From Anaerolineae bacterium (GTDB taxonomy: Bacteria > Chloroflexota > Anaerolineae > Aggregatilineales > Aggregatilineaceae): DNA of 64,000 bases. The stretch spans positions 1 to 64,000 of the forward strand of contig JAFGNU010000073.1 in NCBI GenBank assembly GCA_016926875.1, in the 5' to 3' direction. The position numbers and the translations under genes were made by a program. The notes under the pieces were generated by a model that made no database searches, was not told where the DNA came from, and saw only the letters and a program-made list of their open reading frames with translations. This document shows, one piece after another, positions 4,278-24,272 of this stretch. How positions within the stretch are numbered: the stretch's first letter is position 1; every line of letters begins with the position of its first letter.

Positions 4278-5201
4278 TCACCGGTCCATCCGCACGCGCG
4301 GATCGATCAGCCCGTACAGCACGTCCGCCAGCGCGTTGATCAGGCTGTAAGTCACCGCCGACAGCGCCACCAGCCCTTGAATCACCGGGTAATCGCGCGT
4401 GTCGATGGCCGCCAGCAGCACCTTGCCCAGCCCGCGCCGCGCGAAGATCATCTCGGTGATGACCGTGCCGCCCAGCAAAAAACCCAGTTGCAGCGCCACC
4501 ACCGCCGTCACCGGCAGCAGCCCAACCCGCAGAATGTGATCCAGCACGTCGCTTTCCGGCAGGCCCTTCGCCCGCGCCGTCCGTATGAAGTCCATCGCCG
4601 CCGCAGCCCGGATGCTGCCCGCCGTCACGCGCGCAATACTGCCCGCCGTGTGGAAGCCCAGCACGCACACCGGCAGGATCAAATAGCGCACGCCGCGCCC
4701 GCCCACGCCCGGCAGCACGTCGAGCACTGTCGTAAACAGGTAAATCGCCAGCGTGCCCGTCCAGTACACCGGTGTAGACAGCGCCAGCGATGCGATCCCC
4801 TCGGCGGCATAGCGCACGCCCGCCGGTCGCCCGACCCCGCTCAACACGCCCAGCCCTACCCCCAGCGCCACCGCTACCAGCAGCGCCCCACCTGCCAGTG
4901 CCGCCGTGGGACCGAGGTTTTGCGCAATCATCTCACTGACCGGCTGGCCGGATACCAGCGATTCACCCAGATCACCGCGCAGCACGTCCGCCAGATAGAG
5001 CGCGTACTGCTGCCAGACCGGGTCATCCAGGCCGAGTGCTAACCGCCGCGCCGCGATCTCGGCGTCCGACGCGCCCGCGCGGGCCATCGTCGCATCCAGC
5101 GCATCGCCCGGCAGCCAGCGCAGCACCCCAAACGCCAGGCTGACTGCCAGCCACGCGACCAGGATTGCCGCGCCGAACCGCTGCAAAGCATACGCGATCA
5201 T
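4278..5201 (-). CDS. ABC transporter permease, DppB/OppB type
   Basis: MIAYALQRFGAAILVAWLAVSLAFGVLRWLPGDAL. Start placed at 5201 because the longer ORF overlaps the upstream gene. Confidence 0.92.
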   Translation of the reverse strand: MIAYALQRFGAAILVAWLAVSLAFGVLRWLPGDALDATMARAGASDAEIAARRLALGLDDPVWQQYALYLADVLRGDLGESLVSGQPVSEMIAQNLGPTAALAGGALLVAVALGVGLGVLSGVGRPAGVRYAAEGIASLALSTPVYWTGTLAIYLFTTVLDVLPGVGGRGVRYLILPVCVLGFHTAGSIARVTAGSIRAAAAMDFIRTARAKGLPESDVLDHILRVGLLPVTAVVALQLGFLLGGTVITEMIFARRGLGKVLLAAIDTRDYPVIQGLVALSAVTYSLINALADVLYGLIDPRVRMDR

Positions 5202-5214
5202 CGCCGGGGATGAG

Positions 5215-6858
5215 TTACGAGGTAAGCTGCAAGTTGCGCAGCAGCGGCCACCAGCCCTGCGCACTGAAAATCACGCCGTCCAGCCGCGCCGATGTACCGT
5301 TCAGGTTGATGTACTCACGGATCGGCAGCACCACCGCCTGCTCCATGATGCGAAGCTGCGCCGCCGCATACAACTGCGCGCGGGCGTCGTCGGCGTTTTG
5401 CCGGATTCCTTCGGCCAGCCAGCCGTCCAGTTCGGGATCGCTGATGCCGGACCAGTTGCGCGCCCCATCGCTGCGGTAAAACTGGTCCAGGATGCTGGCA
5501 TCCACGCCAAAGTCGTACATCCCGATCAGGTTGTATTCGCCCGCGTTGGCATATTCGAGCAGCGTCGGATAATCCGGCACCTGGATCAATTCGAGATCGA
5601 TCCCCAGGTCGCGCCACTGGCTCTGGATTAACTGTGCTACGTCCGCCATCTGGTTCCAGGAAGCAAACACCATCGTCAGCGCCAGCGGTTCGCCGTCCAG
5701 GTCCAGGATGCCGTCGGCGTCCGTATCCGCATAGCCAAGCCCTTCCAGCAGCGAGCGCGCGTAGCCCGTGTCATATGGGTACAGCCGCTCAACTTCGGGG
5801 CTATAAAACGGCGTGACCGATACCAGCGGCCCGTAGGCAACCGGCGATTGTCCCTGAAACACTGCGTCACTGATCGCCGTGCGGTTGGTGGCGTACAACA
5901 GCGCCTGCCGGATCATGAATTCATCGGTCGGTGCGCGCCGGGTGTTGATAAAAAACTGCTGCGGCGTGCCCGCAATCGGCGTGCGGAGGATGCGCAGCGC
6001 CGTGTTACCGGCCAGCAGTTCCGCGTCGGTCGGCAGCAGTTCACCGATCATCTGCACATCACCACCCTCTAACGCGAGGCTGCGCGTGGGCGGATCGGTG
6101 TAGAAGCGAAATTCGACCGTGTCTACCGACTGGTCACTGGCAGGCGCATAAAACACCGGTCCCCATGCATAATCCTCGTTGCGCCGCAGCACGATCCGGT
6201 CGCCGGGCACAAATTCCACCAGCTTGTATGGTCCGGTCCCGACCTGGTGCCACTGGTACGAGTTTTTAGTCTGCTCTCTCAAAGCTGTCGGGCTGGCGAT
6301 ACCCAGGTACACCTGGCTCAGCGCATCCAGCAGCGGCGCGTAGGGTTCCGACAGGCTGAGCCGGATCGTGTACTCATCTACGATTTCGTAGCCGGTGTAC
6401 GGTCCCAGCAAAAAGCGCGCTTTCTGCGATCCGATCTCCGGGTCCATAATCCGGTTCAGGTTCGCGCCAACCGCCGCCGCATCAAAGCGCGTCCCGTCGT
6501 GGAATGTTACATCCCGGCGCAGCGAAAACGTCCACGCCAGGCCGTCGTCCGCCATCGTCCATGTTTCCGCCAGCCCAGGCACAAAGCCCATCGTCTGCGG
6601 GTGGCGGTAGATCAGCGTGTCGTAGACCGAATAAAACGGGATGCCAAGCTCGTTCGACAGGTGAATATGCGGGTCAAAGCCGGACGGGTTCAACGTCAGC
6701 CCGTAGACAATCTTATTCCCGGCGTCCTCGTCGGACTCCGCATCGTCGTGCAGGGCCAGCAGCCCTACCACTGCCATACCCAGGCAGCACACCAGCATCA
6801 GCACGCCCAACACGCCCAGGCGCGCCGGTGCACGTTTTCGGATCGGTTCAAAGCTCAT
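5215..6858 (-). CDS. ABC transporter substrate-binding protein, family 5 (peptide/nickel type)
   Basis: IVYGLTLNPSGFDPHIHLSNELG...WTFSLRRDVTFHDGTRFDAAAVGANLNRI; upstream of the two permeases. Confidence 0.93.
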   Translation of the reverse strand: MSFEPIRKRAPARLGVLGVLMLVCCLGMAVVGLLALHDDAESDEDAGNKIVYGLTLNPSGFDPHIHLSNELGIPFYSVYDTLIYRHPQTMGFVPGLAETWTMADDGLAWTFSLRRDVTFHDGTRFDAAAVGANLNRIMDPEIGSQKARFLLGPYTGYEIVDEYTIRLSLSEPYAPLLDALSQVYLGIASPTALREQTKNSYQWHQVGTGPYKLVEFVPGDRIVLRRNEDYAWGPVFYAPASDQSVDTVEFRFYTDPPTRSLALEGGDVQMIGELLPTDAELLAGNTALRILRTPIAGTPQQFFINTRRAPTDEFMIRQALLYATNRTAISDAVFQGQSPVAYGPLVSVTPFYSPEVERLYPYDTGYARSLLEGLGYADTDADGILDLDGEPLALTMVFASWNQMADVAQLIQSQWRDLGIDLELIQVPDYPTLLEYANAGEYNLIGMYDFGVDASILDQFYRSDGARNWSGISDPELDGWLAEGIRQNADDARAQLYAAAQLRIMEQAVVLPIREYINLNGTSARLDGVIFSAQGWWPLLRNLQLTS

Positions 6859-17768: not shown

Positions 17769-18431
17769 ATGTCAGATGCAGCAGATAAACCGGTACTCAT
17801 CATCCATGAGGGTGAAAAAGCAGGCCAGCGCTGGACCATCCACGAAGACGAGCTGGTTATCGGGCGCGGGGGCGAATGCGGCCTCGTATTACCGGAGCGG
17901 CAGGTATCGCGCGAGCATATCCGCATCTTCCGCGACGGCGACGCCTACTACCTGGAAGACCTGGACAGCAAAAACGGCACCTGGGTCAATGGCAAGCAAA
18001 TCCAGGCCAGCCAGATACTTTTGCGCGACGGCGACGAGATTCAGATCGCGCTGGCCGTCAAGATCACGTTCGTCGGTTCCGAGGCCACTGCCCCGCTGTT
18101 GATCGATGAACTGCCGGGCACGCTGGGCCGCCTCCAGATCAACCGCGACTCGCGGCGCGTGTTCATTACCGGCATCGAAGTCGATCCGCCGCTCAGCCTG
18201 CCGCAGTACCGCCTGCTCGAACTGCTGTATGACGGGGCGGGCGCGGTCTGCACACGGGACGAGGTGATCGCCACCGTCTGGCCGGACGCCGTCGGGGAAG
18301 GCGTCAGCGAGCAGGCTATCGACGCGCTGGTGCGCCGCCTGCGCGACCGGCTGGCCGAAGTCGACCTGGAGCACCAGTACATTGTGACGGTGCGGGGGCA
18401 CGGCTTCCGCCTTGATAACCCGGTCGACTAG
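17769..18431 (+). CDS. FHA domain protein with C-terminal OmpR/PhoB-type winged helix
   Basis: ELVIGRGGECGLVLPERQVSREHIRIF...LEDLDSKNGTWVNG (FHA); LPQYRLLELLYDGAGAVCTRDEVIATVWPD...IDALVRRLRDRLAEVD..YIVTVRGHGFRL (Trans_reg_C). Confidence 0.92.
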   Translation: MSDAADKPVLIIHEGEKAGQRWTIHEDELVIGRGGECGLVLPERQVSREHIRIFRDGDAYYLEDLDSKNGTWVNGKQIQASQILLRDGDEIQIALAVKITFVGSEATAPLLIDELPGTLGRLQINRDSRRVFITGIEVDPPLSLPQYRLLELLYDGAGAVCTRDEVIATVWPDAVGEGVSEQAIDALVRRLRDRLAEVDLEHQYIVTVRGHGFRLDNPVD

Positions 18432-18543: not shown

Positions 18544-19665
18544 GTGAGCGCAACGCCGCTGACGTATGCAGAAGTGAATCTGGAACATATCGCGCACAAT
18601 GCGCGCGTTATCAAGCGCCATATCGGGCCATCCGTCGCGCTGATGGCGGTCGTCAAAGCCAACGCTTACGGTCATGGCGCGGTCGAGGTGGCACGTACCG
18701 CGCTGGCGTCCGGCGCGGACTGGCTGGTGGTCGCGCGGATCGAGGAAGGGCTTGAACTGCGAGCCGCTGGCATCACGGCGCCGGTCCTGGTGGCGGGTTA
18801 CACGCCGCCCGATGCCGTCGAAGCCGGGGTCGAACACGACCTGGCGCTGGCGGTCACCGAACCGCCGGTGGCGGAACGCATCTCACGCGCGGCGCAGCGC
18901 CAGGGGAAGACCGCGCGCGTGCATGTCAAGGTGGATTCGGGTATGGGGCGCTACGGGCTGCTGCCGGACGAGGTCGTACCGCTGTTTGATCACCTGGCCT
19001 CCCTGCCCGGCATCACTATCGAAGGCGTTTTCAGCCATCTGGCAGTAGCCGAACTCCCCGACAAGGCGTATACATGGCAGCAGTTCCACACGTTTGAGCG
19101 GGTATTGGAGCAGTTGGACACAGCGGGCTACCGGGTGCCGGTGCGCCACATCGCCAACAGCGCCGGTGCGCTTGATCTTCCGCCCATGCACCTCGACGCC
19201 GTGCGGGTTGGCGTTGCGCTGTACGGACTCCGCCCCTCAGACGAGGTTGAACCGTCCGTGCCCCTGAAACCTGCGCTGGCGTTGAAAAGTCACGTGGTCC
19301 GCGTCAGCACGCTGCCTGCCGGGTCCAGCATCAGCTACGGGCGCACGTATATCACGCCGCGCGAGATGGCGGTTGCCCTGGTGCCGGTCGGCTATGGCGA
19401 CGGGTACCACCGCCTGATTTCCAATCGCGGCGCGGTGTTGATCAACGGCAGGCGCGCGCCGCTGATCGGGCGCGTCTGTATGGACCAGTTTGTCGTGGAC
19501 GTGTCGGCGGCTGGCCGTGTGGCCGTGGGCGACGAGGTGGTGTTGATCGGGAACCAGGGGGAGGCCAGCATCCCGGCTGAAGAAGTCGCGCGCTGGGCCG
19601 ACACCATCAACTACGAGGTCACGACGGCGCTGCTGCCCCGTGTCGCGCGTGTTTTTGTGCCATAA
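18544..19665 (+). CDS. alr: Alanine racemase
   Basis: AEVNLEHIAHNARVIKRHIGPSVALMAVVKANAYGHGAVEVARTAL (PLP Lys); VHVKVDSGMGRYGL; PLIGRVCMDQFVVDV. Confidence 0.97.
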   Translation: MSATPLTYAEVNLEHIAHNARVIKRHIGPSVALMAVVKANAYGHGAVEVARTALASGADWLVVARIEEGLELRAAGITAPVLVAGYTPPDAVEAGVEHDLALAVTEPPVAERISRAAQRQGKTARVHVKVDSGMGRYGLLPDEVVPLFDHLASLPGITIEGVFSHLAVAELPDKAYTWQQFHTFERVLEQLDTAGYRVPVRHIANSAGALDLPPMHLDAVRVGVALYGLRPSDEVEPSVPLKPALALKSHVVRVSTLPAGSSISYGRTYITPREMAVALVPVGYGDGYHRLISNRGAVLINGRRAPLIGRVCMDQFVVDVSAAGRVAVGDEVVLIGNQGEASIPAEEVARWADTINYEVTTALLPRVARVFVP

Positions 19666-19724
19666 GGGGAAACGCTGGCCGTTCCGCTATGACGCCTTTG
19701 TGCTGCCAAAAACCACCAAAATCG

Positions 19725-19777
19725 TTTCGCGCTGCGCGCGAAAGGGGCTGGCGCTACGCGCCTGCTGCTGCGCAGCA
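19725..19777. repeat. Cluster of three perfect inverted repeats 3' of the TIR-FGE stop, between convergent genes
   Basis: TTTCGCGC-tgc-GCGCGAAA (19725-19743), GGCGC-tac-GCGCC (19750-19762), palindrome TGCTGCGCAGCA (19766-19777). Confidence 0.8.
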
Positions 19778-19802
19778 CCGCCCCCCCAGCGATCAGAAAA
19801 AC

Positions 19803-21860
19803 CTATAGAGAAGGGGGACGCACCAACCGAAACCCGAAGTGGTCGTTCCGAGAAGCCGGATGGTAGAGGTCGCGGGACACGCAGCGCGCGAAGTCTCGAT
19901 TGAAGAACCACGCCCCGCCGCGCACCACCCGCGAGGCGTCACTGTCCCCGTCCTCACGCCCATCGTCCGCCCGGTAGGGATACGCCTGGTATAACGTGCT
20001 GGTCCATTCCCACACGTTCCCGCTCATATCCAGCGCCCCCACCCACGACGCGCCCCCTGTCCGCTGTTCCGGGCCAACGGGTGCCGTTCCGCCCTCACAA
20101 CCAGACGTATTTGCCTGTTCACAGGTTGGTGCCTCGTTTCCCCAGGGATACAGCCACCCATCCGGTCCCCGCGCGGCGTACTCCCATTCCGCTTCGGTTG
20201 GCAAACGCCCGCCTACCCACTCACTGTAAGCCCTGGCCCCGTACCACGACACCTCTACCACCGGGTGATCCTCATAGCCTGCGTCCGCTGCCCACGTTCC
20301 CCCCTGCTGGTGAATGCGCACATAGTCGCTGTCAGCCTCGAGCCAAGTTGTTCCGCCTTCCGACTGGTTGCCCTGCGCGTTCAGAAAGGCCGCGTACTGC
20401 GCGTTGGTCACTTCGTACCGGCTGATCCAGAACGGCTCTTCAAAGCACTGCTCATTGTCTTCGACATCTTCGCCCATCTCAAAACAGCCCGCAGGCACCA
20501 GCACCATCTCCACGCCGTCGAATGTCTGCACCACCGGCTCCCAGTCATCGTTGCCCCCCTCGAATGTGCGCGCCCGGTCCAGCGCGGCTTGCCGCGGGTC
20601 GGGGGTTGTGGTGGGCGTGCTGGTGGGAGTAGAAGTATATGTTGAGGTGGCAGTGGCTGTCGCCGTGCTGGTTGGTGTATGCGTGAACGTGGGTGTACTA
20701 CTTGGCGTAGCGGTTGCTGTTAGCGTGGGCGTGGCTGAAGAGGTATTGGTGGGCGTGCTGGTTGGCGTCGGCGTGACCGTCGGCGTGAACGTGGGTGTAT
20801 CGCTGGGCGTGGCAGTAGCGGTCGGTGTGGGTGTGGCTGAAGGCGTATCGCTGGGCGTCGGCGTGAATGTCCACATCGTCGCCGTGAGCGTCTGGAACAC
20901 TACCGCCATCGCAGCATCATAGGTCAGCGTCAGGTTGGGCGTCGGCAGCGGGGTATCCGTCGCCGTTGGCGTATATGAGGGCGTATAGGTCCACAACGCC
21001 GCCGTCGCGCTGGCATCCTGGTCCGCCGCGACTTTGCTGGCCGTTACATCCATCCACACCTGGGTTTCCAGCGGCAAGGTAGGCGTTGGGGTGCTGGTCG
21101 GCGGGGGTGTATCGGACGGGGTGAGCGTCTCGGTCGGGGTATCGGTAGCAGTGGCCGTTGCCGTTTCAGTCAACGTTGGCGTTTCGGTCGGCAGCGGGAT
21201 TTCGGCGGCTTCTTCCGTCCCGGCGGCGGCGACCGCTTTGGTCTGTTCCGGCGTGGTGTCCTCGCCGTCACCATCCCCCAGCACCCCGCTCAACGCGATC
21301 ACTATCGCCGCCAGCGCCAGCAGCGCGATCACCGCGCCAGCTACCCACAGGCCCCTTGCTGACCGTTCGGGCGGCTTATCCGGCACCGGCGGGCGGCTGA
21401 TCGGCTGAGGACTCTGCGGGGGCGGTGGCTTTGGCGGCACTTCGTCCAGCAGCCGGTGGGCCGATGCATACAGCCGCGTGATCGCGCCGGTATCCCGAAC
21501 TCCCCGCGACATATCGACGTAATGCGTGCGCCGCAGCAGCGCGGCCAGATCAGGTGGCACCGGGCCGGGATAGTTGGTTTTGGGACGCACGATCACGGGC
21601 AGCACCTGCTTGTGCAGTCGCAGCGCTTCGCGGTATTCCGACTGGCAGTAGGGCGAGGCCAGCGACTCGTTCGAGATCAGGTAAACGAACAGTTCACAGT
21701 CTGCCACCTGGGCCAGGATCGTCTGCCACCAGTCCACGCCGCCGTGAATATCGTCGTCAAACCAGACGCTGTCCGGCCCATACACGCGGCGCAGCAGCGG
21801 CACCAGCCCATCAATGAACTGGCGGTCTGCCCGGCTGTAGGAAATGAAAATACGCGCCAT
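19803..21860 (-). CDS. TIR domain - TM - Thr/Pro-rich linker - FGE-sulfatase (C-type-lectin-like fold) domain protein
   Basis: [23 protein letters not shown]...[20 protein letters not shown] (TIR); [26 protein letters not shown] (TM); TPTxT linkers; [40 protein letters not shown]...[17 protein letters not shown]...[38 protein letters not shown] (FGE-sulfatase). Confidence 0.92.
20590..20875 (-). repeat. Low-complexity region encoding a Thr/Pro/Ala-rich linker (second linker)
   Basis: [43 protein letters not shown]...[10 protein letters not shown]. Confidence 0.85.
21060..21205 (-). repeat. Low-complexity region encoding a Thr/Pro-rich linker (first linker)
   Basis: [44 protein letters not shown]. 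Confidence 0.85.
21279..21350 (-). other. Predicted transmembrane segment of the TIR-FGE protein (about residues 171-194)
   Basis: [24 protein letters not shown] flanked by [10 protein letters not shown] (positive) and [12 protein letters not shown] (negative): N-in/C-out by the positive-inside rule. Confidence 0.75.
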
Positions 21861-21964
21861 GATAGCCCCCTGAACCAGCGTGCGGACACCTGTCCGGTAG
21901 TATATATCGCGCCCGATTTGCCGCCAAGCAACACAACAACACCGCCCCCACGGCAATCAGCGCT

Positions 21965-22126
21965 TCAGGGAGAAAGGGGCCGCACTATTCGGAATCCAAT
22001 GAGGTTGACCTGGTCCCCCGGAAGGCCGTAGTAGCGATACACGGCGCGCACAAAATACTGGCTGAGGTGCCACGCCCCACCGCGCAGCACCCGCACCCCG
22101 TCCGCGTAACTGATGAATATCTTCAT
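21965..22126 (-). pseudogene. 53-aa relic or mini-gene: TIR N-terminal start joined to FGE-sulfatase C-terminus
   Basis: Reverse translation: MKIFISYADGVRVLRGGAWHLSQYFVRAVYRYYGLPGDQVNLIGFRIVRPLSP*. Start matches TIR N-termini (cf. [10 protein letters not shown] of the neighbour); tail matches the neighbour's FGE end. Not in the supplied ORF track (<60 aa). Confidence 0.75.
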
Positions 22127-22210: not shown

Positions 22211-22248
22211 AAAAAACGCCCCCGCCGCATTGTGTGCAGCCGGGGCGC
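22211..22248 (-). terminator. Rho-independent terminator of the amidohydrolase-CYTH gene
   Basis: Minus strand: gccccgg-ctgcacacaatgcgg-cgggggcg followed by TTTTTT. Confidence 0.65.
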
Positions 22249-22292
22249 CACTCCATATGACATTAAGAACCCGCGCTAAGCCAGCAGCGCGC

Positions 22293-24272
22293 TCAGCACA
22301 GGTCGACGTACTCCATGCGCACGCGGTCCGCCTGCTCGATAGCCAGGATGTCGTTCAGGATTTCGGTGGTCAGCGCGGCTTTAAACTCCGCGTCTTTTTG
22401 CGACCACGTGCGCGACTTGATCTCGATATAACGCGCCTCGACCTGTGGTTCCACGATCCGGTCCAGGTTCGCATAAAACAACACGCCCTTATACAGGATA
22501 TGCCAGCGCAGCCGGTCCTTTTGCACTTCACATTCCCGCCGGGCCTGGAAATATTCGCGGTAAAAGCGCAGCGGGCGGTCGGCGGGCGCGATAAAGCGCG
22601 AACGCGACAGCAGCACCGCCTCGTCAAACTCGCGCTCTTTTTCGGGGATGGTGTACGTCAGCCGGGTGCGCACGCTGACCAGTTGACCGTCTTCGCTGAC
22701 CAAGTCATCCTCGCGGTAGCGAACGCGCCCCTGCTGCTCGTCCTCGAACAGGAAATAGGTGTCGTACTGCCGGTAATGCTTGTGCCGCACGATCTCCACG
22801 CTCGGATGGTCCAGCAGGCGCCGGATCAGGTCTTCGCCGTCGCCGTTGATCCGCGCCTTGACCTGAATCTCAAAGCTCTCTTCCTGCTCCAGGCCGCCAA
22901 TCGCCACCAGCTTATTCAGTACGTTGCCCTCGCGCGCAATCAGGAAGGCGTCGATCCGGCGTGCATAGTCTGCCGCCTCCCGCCGAATCTGGTCCGCGTC
23001 CAGCGTCAGCAGGGACCGGTCACGCATCAACCACTGGCCGTTGACCATCACGTGCTGCACGTCCGATGCCTGGCTGGCATACACCACCTGTGAATAAGCG
23101 CTGTTCGGATCGCGCTCAAACTTCGGCGCGTTGTGCAGCGGGTCGCGGTCCAGCACGATCAGATCAGCCCGCTTGCCCACGTCCAGGCTGCCGGTGATAT
23201 CGCCCAGGTGCATCGCCTCTGCGCCCCAGCGGGTTGCCATCAGCAGCGCATCTTTGGCGGGCAGCACCATCGGGTCGTAAGTTGCACCCTTGATCAGCAG
23301 CGCCGCCAGCCGCATCTCCTCGAACATATCCAGGTCATTGTTACTGGCCGGGCCGTCCGTGCCGACGCTCAGCCGGACACCGCGTTCCAACATCTCCTTG
23401 ATCGGCGCAATGCCGCTGGCCAGCTTCAGGTTGCTGGTGGGATTATGCGCCACCGCTACCCGGTGCTTCGCCAGCGCGATGATCTCCTCCGAATCGATGT
23501 GCACACAGTGCGCCGCGATCGTCTTGGCCCGGAAGACGCCCAGGTCTGCCACGCGATGCACCACGCGCTTCTGGTATTTCTCCCAGCTTTCATCCGCTTC
23601 CAGGCGCGTTTCGGAGATGTGAATCTGGAGCGGCACATCAAACTCAACCGCCAGATCGGCGCACGCCTGCAAAATCTCGTCCGTGCAGGTATACGGCGCG
23701 TGCGGCGCCACCGACGGCACGATCAGCGGGTGATCTTTCCACTCCTCGATAAAGCGGCGTGTATAGGCCAGGCTGTCTTCGTAGCTGTCCGCGTCCGGCG
23801 ATGGGAACTTGAGCACCGTTTGCCCGCACACGGCCCGCAGCCCGGCCTCGGCAATCGCGGCGGCGACATCGGCCTCATAGTAGTACATATCCACCGCCAG
23901 CGTCGTCCCGCCCCGGATCATTTCGGCGCAGGCCAATTGAGTCCCCAAGCGGCAGTACTCCGGGCTGACGAATTCGCGCTCGGTCGGCATCATGTAGCCC
24001 ATCAGCCACACGTCCAGCCGCAGGTCATCCGCCATCCCGCGCAGCAGCGTCATCGCCATGTGGGTATGCGTGTTTACCAGGCCCGGCAGCACAAACTGGT
24101 CCCGGCAGTCGATCACCTCGTCCGCCTCGTATTCGGCCCGGATGACCTCGGCGGGACCAACCGCCGCGATGCTGTCTCCCTGGATCGCAACCGCGCCGTC
24201 CGGGAACCGGTCCAGCGCCTTGTTCATTGTCAGAACCATACCACCAACAAGCAGCGTATCGACTTTCTTCAT
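22293..24272 (-). CDS. Amidohydrolase (MtaD-like S-adenosylhomocysteine/5'-methylthioadenosine deaminase) fused to a C-terminal CYTH-like domain
   Basis: VNTHTHMAMTLLRGMADDLRLDVWLMGYMMPTE...APHAPYTCTDEIL...IHISET...AAHCVHIDSEEI...SVGTDGPASNNDLDMFEEM; C-terminus SFEIQVKARI...YRQYDTYFLFEDEQQGRVRYREDD. Confidence 0.88.
   Translation of the reverse strand: MKKVDTLLVGGMVLTMNKALDRFPDGAVAIQGDSIAAVGPAEVIRAEYEADEVIDCRDQFVLPGLVNTHTHMAMTLLRGMADDLRLDVWLMGYMMPTEREFVSPEYCRLGTQLACAEMIRGGTTLAVDMYYYEADVAAAIAEAGLRAVCGQTVLKFPSPDADSYEDSLAYTRRFIEEWKDHPLIVPSVAPHAPYTCTDEILQACADLAVEFDVPLQIHISETRLEADESWEKYQKRVVHRVADLGVFRAKTIAAHCVHIDSEEIIALAKHRVAVAHNPTSNLKLASGIAPIKEMLERGVRLSVGTDGPASNNDLDMFEEMRLAALLIKGATYDPMVLPAKDALLMATRWGAEAMHLGDITGSLDVGKRADLIVLDRDPLHNAPKFERDPNSAYSQVVYASQASDVQHVMVNGQWLMRDRSLLTLDADQIRREAADYARRIDAFLIAREGNVLNKLVAIGGLEQEESFEIQVKARINGDGEDLIRRLLDHPSVEIVRHKHYRQYDTYFLFEDEQQGRVRYREDDLVSEDGQLVSVRTRLTYTIPEKEREFDEAVLLSRSRFIAPADRPLRFYREYFQARRECEVQKDRLRWHILYKGVLFYANLDRIVEPQVEARYIEIKSRTWSQKDAEFKAALTTEILNDILAIEQADRVRMEYVDLC

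Follow-up and report, generated by a model that had tools for sequence, protein, structure and literature searches.

Sensors with FGE/CLec tails that are diversified by diversity-generating retroelements (DGRs) and joined to NACHT, TIR, or other conflict domains have already been described, as have degenerate DGR loci and sets of several related DGRs in multicellular bacteria, filamentous Chloroflexi among them (PMC10907252; PMC7159879). Among known architectures, the TIR–FGE fusions (TIR_2 plus FGE-sulfatase/C-type-lectin) are the closest to the locus examined here. The stretch of DNA that we analyzed (the window; 64,000 nt of an Anaerolineae contig) encodes one intact fusion of this kind and, upstream of it, a 53-aa open reading frame (ORF) that has the same start and the same end but lacks the TIR active site, the linker, and the FGE core. 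We consider it quite likely that this ORF is what remains of a second TIR–FGE gene that collapsed by an in-frame deletion, that probably once stood in tandem upstream of the present gene, and that is now most likely without function. It would thus add one deletion relic of a DGR-type sensor gene to the known picture, ordinary in itself but useful as a marker of TIR–FGE gene turnover.

Structure of the 53-aa ORF

The ORF lies on the minus strand at 21965 to 22126, and its letters agree exactly with the preliminary description. An in-frame TGA is located 12 nt 5′ of the ATG, so the frame has no start farther upstream. Codons 1 to 8 (22103 to 22126, minus strand) encode the TIR start MKIFISYA, and codons 9 to 53 plus the stop (21965 to 22102, minus strand) encode an FGE C-terminal tail, DGVRVLRGG...GFRIVRPLSP. 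The preliminary description had reported that a TIR start and an FGE tail are joined in frame and that the ORF precedes an intact TIR–FGE gene on the same strand; both statements hold, with eight TIR residues followed by ~45 FGE residues and with a gap of 101 nt between two minus-strand genes. The TIR homology ends where the FGE homology begins. Since DGVRVLRGGAW is identical in an FGE protein of Beggiatoa (L186), the FGE homology extends from codon 9, which places the putative deletion junction, drawn from the homology limits of TIR starts and FGE tails, between codon 8 (GCG) and codon 9 (GAC) at 22103/22102 on the minus strand.

Homology of the two ends

Residues 10 to 49 of the ORF match positions 213 to 255 (of 255) of the Pfam FGE-sulfatase model (PF03781) with an E value of 0.0024 against the whole library. 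The score of 18 bits falls short of the family cutoff (23.3), since the ORF contains no more than the tail; a full C-type-lectin/FGE domain above the curated cutoff is thus lacking. The scaffold RV.RGG.W ... R ... P ... GFR.V is present, and all of the columns that are invariant among the tails of the same genome are kept. A tblastn search with the 53 aa, suggested in the preliminary description, recovered FGE tails of intact genes at about 40 to 55% identity (E values down to 6.8e-11), and related tails of intact genes were found in many genomes of the order. When the six frames of the window were searched with a tail HMM built without the ORF, the ORF scored 55.5 bits, compared to 11.7 for the best hit in ten shuffled windows. 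The leave-one-out score of its tail (56.1) is in the middle of the range, with 25 of 60 intact tails scoring lower, and the tail shows no visible decay.

The other end is far shorter, and the fact that the TIR half comprises only eight residues counts against a deletion origin. Pfam detects no TIR domain in the ORF, and the full TIR fold with its catalytic region (PF13676) is missing. The eight residues fit the TIR-domain starts of the same genome, among them MRLFISYA in a TIR–FGE gene on contig C63. The brevity of the match would also suit a truncated FGE gene end that gained a TIR-like start by chance, a reading that is hardly credible: the window contains the motif M.{0,3}[ILV]F[ILV]S[YH][ASRKT] two times, as expected, once in the ORF and once in its neighbor, compared to only two hits in total over all frames of 200 shuffled windows, and here it directly adjoins the FGE homology, next to a TIR–FGE gene. 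The homology of neither half of the ORF is due to chance. The two parts could nevertheless derive from two different genes.

Probable origin by deletion

The preliminary description explained the fusion by the in-frame collapse of a TIR–FGE gene. This is the simplest way to account for a TIR start joined to an FGE tail, and our results support it. The parent, a second TIR–FGE gene, would have preceded the present one, probably in a tandem arrangement, and a single in-frame deletion would have taken out the sequence from after TIR codon 8 up to the last ~45 FGE codons, about 2 kb for a parent similar to the neighbor. What stayed behind would be a start codon with a short open frame and an FGE tail that has not decayed. 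A clean deletion is expected to leave nothing else behind, and no other convincing TIR or FGE remnant was detected in the 429-nt intergenic gap. There is also no upstream sequence common to the ORF and the neighbor or other TIR genes.

We infer the deletion rather than observe it because no full-length sister was found in the 154 genomes of the order or in the GTDB scan. Paralogous TIR–FGE genes are abundant, but no direct ortholog was found in these 154 genomes or in the GTDB scan; the latter returned only distant FGE tails, from Beggiatoa and Pleurocapsales, and a search of IMG/VR gave no full-length sister. No mini-ORF of the same composition was seen in the 154 genomes, where some but not all short frames were inspected individually; those inspected either reach contig ends or have additional FGE sequence on their upstream side.

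Among 72 tails compared at nondiversified positions, that of the neighbor is the nearest to the tail of the ORF (0.767, tied with one other), and two intact TIR–FGE genes stand in tandem on contig C63 of the same genome. Together, these observations make a tandem origin plausible. The former tandem array proposed in the preliminary description is therefore partly borne out, but no relative with a second full-length copy was found.

Since the tail is undecayed and of midrange HMM score, the event was recent or else the tail is under constraint. The latter would fit a functional ORF, and a translated, selected microprotein, e.g., a competitor or modulator of the neighboring TIR–FGE protein, would agree with the open frame, the intact scaffold residues, the midrange score, the coding-like GC content by codon position (64/42/76%), and the location 101 nt ahead of the neighbor. 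We nonetheless regard it as unlikely. The ribosome-binding site is weak, with a Shine–Dalgarno pairing of −2.3 kcal/mol compared to −5.3 kcal/mol for the neighbor (several normal genes of the window pair equally weakly), and a homologous mini-ORF was not seen in the 154 genomes. An FGE tail is part of a single domain core and not a fold of its own. A single-sequence structure model of the ORF alone is all helical and not FGE-like (pLDDT, 69; pTM, 0.36), with no confident fold, and is uninformative. A more specific version, in which the ORF is a retained and translated minimal variable-tail peptide from a DGR-diversified immune sensor that acts on the neighboring protein, is very improbable. 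The relic now is most likely inactive, as it has no TIR catalytic region, FGE core, convincing ribosome-binding site, or recombination partner.

An assembly artifact, in which the assembler would have collapsed a second gene of full length, is conceivable for a draft genome in 104 contigs that is 86% complete, but we consider it improbable. No word of at least 14 bases from the 400 nt around it is repeated in the window, blastn of the region against the rest of the genome gave no match, and the frame is kept across the join. Without shared sequence around the junction, there is nothing to collapse an assembly graph, and misassembly via repeats was rejected on these grounds.

Genomic context

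The intact neighbor (19803 to 21863, minus strand) encodes 686 aa, with Pfam matches to TIR_2 at residues 5 to 125 and to FGE at residues 452 to 682 on either side of a low-complexity linker. A promoter-like site, TTGGCG-17-TATACT (21899 to 21927, minus strand), recognized by consensus match only, is found before the neighbor and 3′ of the stop of the 53-aa ORF. On the other side, 166 nt separate the ORF from an amidohydrolase gene (22293 to 24272, minus strand; domain and homology searches), which lies outside the system and served as a flanking synteny anchor. A terminator-like hairpin with a T run (22211 to 22250, minus strand), predicted from sequence and fold, follows the amidohydrolase gene and separates it from the ORF. 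At its C terminus, the amidohydrolase matches CYTH weakly, and the protein is 74 to 81% identical across all of the family genomes searched.

In eight fetched relatives, the amidohydrolase gene adjoins an FHA gene (17769 to 18431 here), the two being separated by about 100 to 280 nt or by ~1 kb of unrelated inserted sequence; in the remaining relatives fetched, there is no FHA gene nearby or the contig ends there. None of the stretches fetched from the relatives gave a tblastn match to the alanine racemase, to the TIR–FGE gene, or to the 53-aa ORF, and the racemase is encoded elsewhere in relatives. The block consisting of the alanine racemase, the TIR–FGE gene, and the 53-aa ORF (18544 to 22126) is thus absent between the FHA and amidohydrolase genes in comparable relatives. 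Of the genomes compared, only this one thus has the block, and the state before the deletion is not visible in the relatives. The comparison of this locus among relatives, proposed in the preliminary description as a way to find a second full-length TIR–FGE copy, revealed none where the FHA/amidohydrolase region was comparable.

Probable traces of DGR activity in the tail

Another contig of the same genome (C13) carries a DGR (L122:184-6758), which comprises a TIR–NACHT–FGE target gene, an A-rich template repeat (4571 to 4693) that reads NNNQNNARCAYRNNNNPNNRNNN, and a reverse transcriptase (6084 to 6728) near the contig end. The target has 1,402 aa, and a DUF559 nuclease-like domain interrupts its FGE part. 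A comparison of template and target shows differences at only 1 of 73 non-A positions but at 14 of 32 A positions, and this concentration at A is the hallmark of adenine-directed mutagenesis. The template aligns without gaps with the tail of the 53-aa ORF and with that of the neighbor.

This alignment, together with the codons at the diversified positions, suggests that the segment RVLRGG...GFR of the 53-aa tail (21989 to 22093, minus strand) is a probable fossil DGR-type variable region. Pyrimidines occupy the third base in 13 of 14 diversified codons, compared to 8 of the 21 others (Fisher P = 0.0015); in the neighbor's tail, the corresponding values are 14 of 14 and 8 of 21 (P = 0.0002), with the codon tests in both cases having been chosen after the C13 template had been seen. 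A third-base bias is also seen among synonymous codons: the three Leu codons at diversified positions of the 53-aa tail are CTC, CTT, and CTC, whereas CTY makes up 15% of the Leu codons in the genes of the window. A restriction to NNY is expected of a past target whose template carried AAY codons, and the 53-aa tail displays it; NNY-rich tails are also found in genomes with no detected reverse transcriptase, so the pattern is suggestive rather than proof. This codon signature of the two tails is new in the present analysis and had gone unnoticed in the preliminary description.

The 3′ end of the neighbor (19827 to 19931, minus strand) is likewise likely to be a fossil variable region. All 14 of its diversified codons are NNY, and it is identical to the C13 template at 62 of 73 non-A but only 10 of 32 A positions. 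The DNA identity between the neighbor and the C13 gene is 43% in the upstream FGE part and 84% at non-A template positions, an excess that is partly due to selection, as the variable region includes the conserved FGE scaffold. There is little excess of this type in pairs that involve FGE genes without the NNY pattern. For the variable tail of the neighbor, no template of its own was found.

The tandem TIR–FGE pair on contig C63 (L124:2642-5385) is a mosaic of the reverse kind, with 83% DNA identity in the upstream FGE part and 22% at A (DGR-diversified) positions, as if the tails had been rewritten independently after duplication.

Like the neighbor, the parent of the 53-aa ORF would probably have had a C-type-lectin FGE tail that was once diversified by a DGR. 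In its gapless alignment with a template/variable-region pair and its NNY diversified codons, the 53-aa tail resembles described DGR targets with FGE/CLec tails (PMC10907252; PMC7159879). Unlike those targets, it has neither a matching template nor an adjacent reverse transcriptase, and it differs from the C13 template at 22 of 73 non-A positions; it is thus at most a fossil target. The reverse transcriptase on C13 is the only one found in the genome, and a template may be missing from an assembly that is 86% complete. Parts have also been lost from DGR target loci in Thiohalocapsa PB-PSB1 (PMC10907252), but there the loss is by transposons and MITE-like arrays, whereas the present locus, where no mobile element was seen, points to a deletion within a gene.

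Comparison with a genuine template

The preliminary description had also suggested that the ORF may be retained as a recombination donor for the neighbor. The idea that it rewrites the neighbor's C terminus, as a donor or as a DGR template repeat, gains some appeal from its position next to a gene whose variable tail is of the DGR type and from the C13 template, which is the other orphan FGE-tail reading frame found in the genome and is a genuine DGR template. The likeness ends there. The C13 template is A-rich (32 A's) and is identical to its own target at 72 of 73 non-A positions; the 53-aa tail is neither, having 16 A's in 120 nt and diversified codons that read CAC CTC AGC TAT.... It does not combine A at the diversified positions with near-identity elsewhere. 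The two neighboring tails are identical at 76 of 117 positions (65%), differ at 30 of 104 non-A positions, and share no run longer than 9 bases; blastn found no other copy of the 53-aa tail in the genome, and the sole reverse transcriptase found is on another contig. Since a template or donor requires near-identity with its partner and the 53-aa tail has none, the suggestion is not supported. Judged by A content, identity to the partner, and length of shared runs, this reading is already contradicted, and we give it next to no credence.

Rather than a working cassette, the 53-aa ORF is best regarded as a likely deletion relic in a genome where TIR–FGE genes occur in tandem, where their C-terminal tails appear to have been rewritten independently, and where another contig carries a DGR with a TIR–NACHT–FGE target. 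These features make the lineage suitable for testing whether shared templates diversified TIR–FGE sensors in trans in the past. A related genome contains two more N-rich template-repeat frames (L166, G011:C341; L176, G011:C439), one of which lies beside a reverse transcriptase. Further local FGE expansion is evident on contig C60 of the same genome (40000 to 49500; L121), where the gene for an 854-aa protein that has a TIR start and contains two FGE tails lies beside a 304-aa FGE gene.
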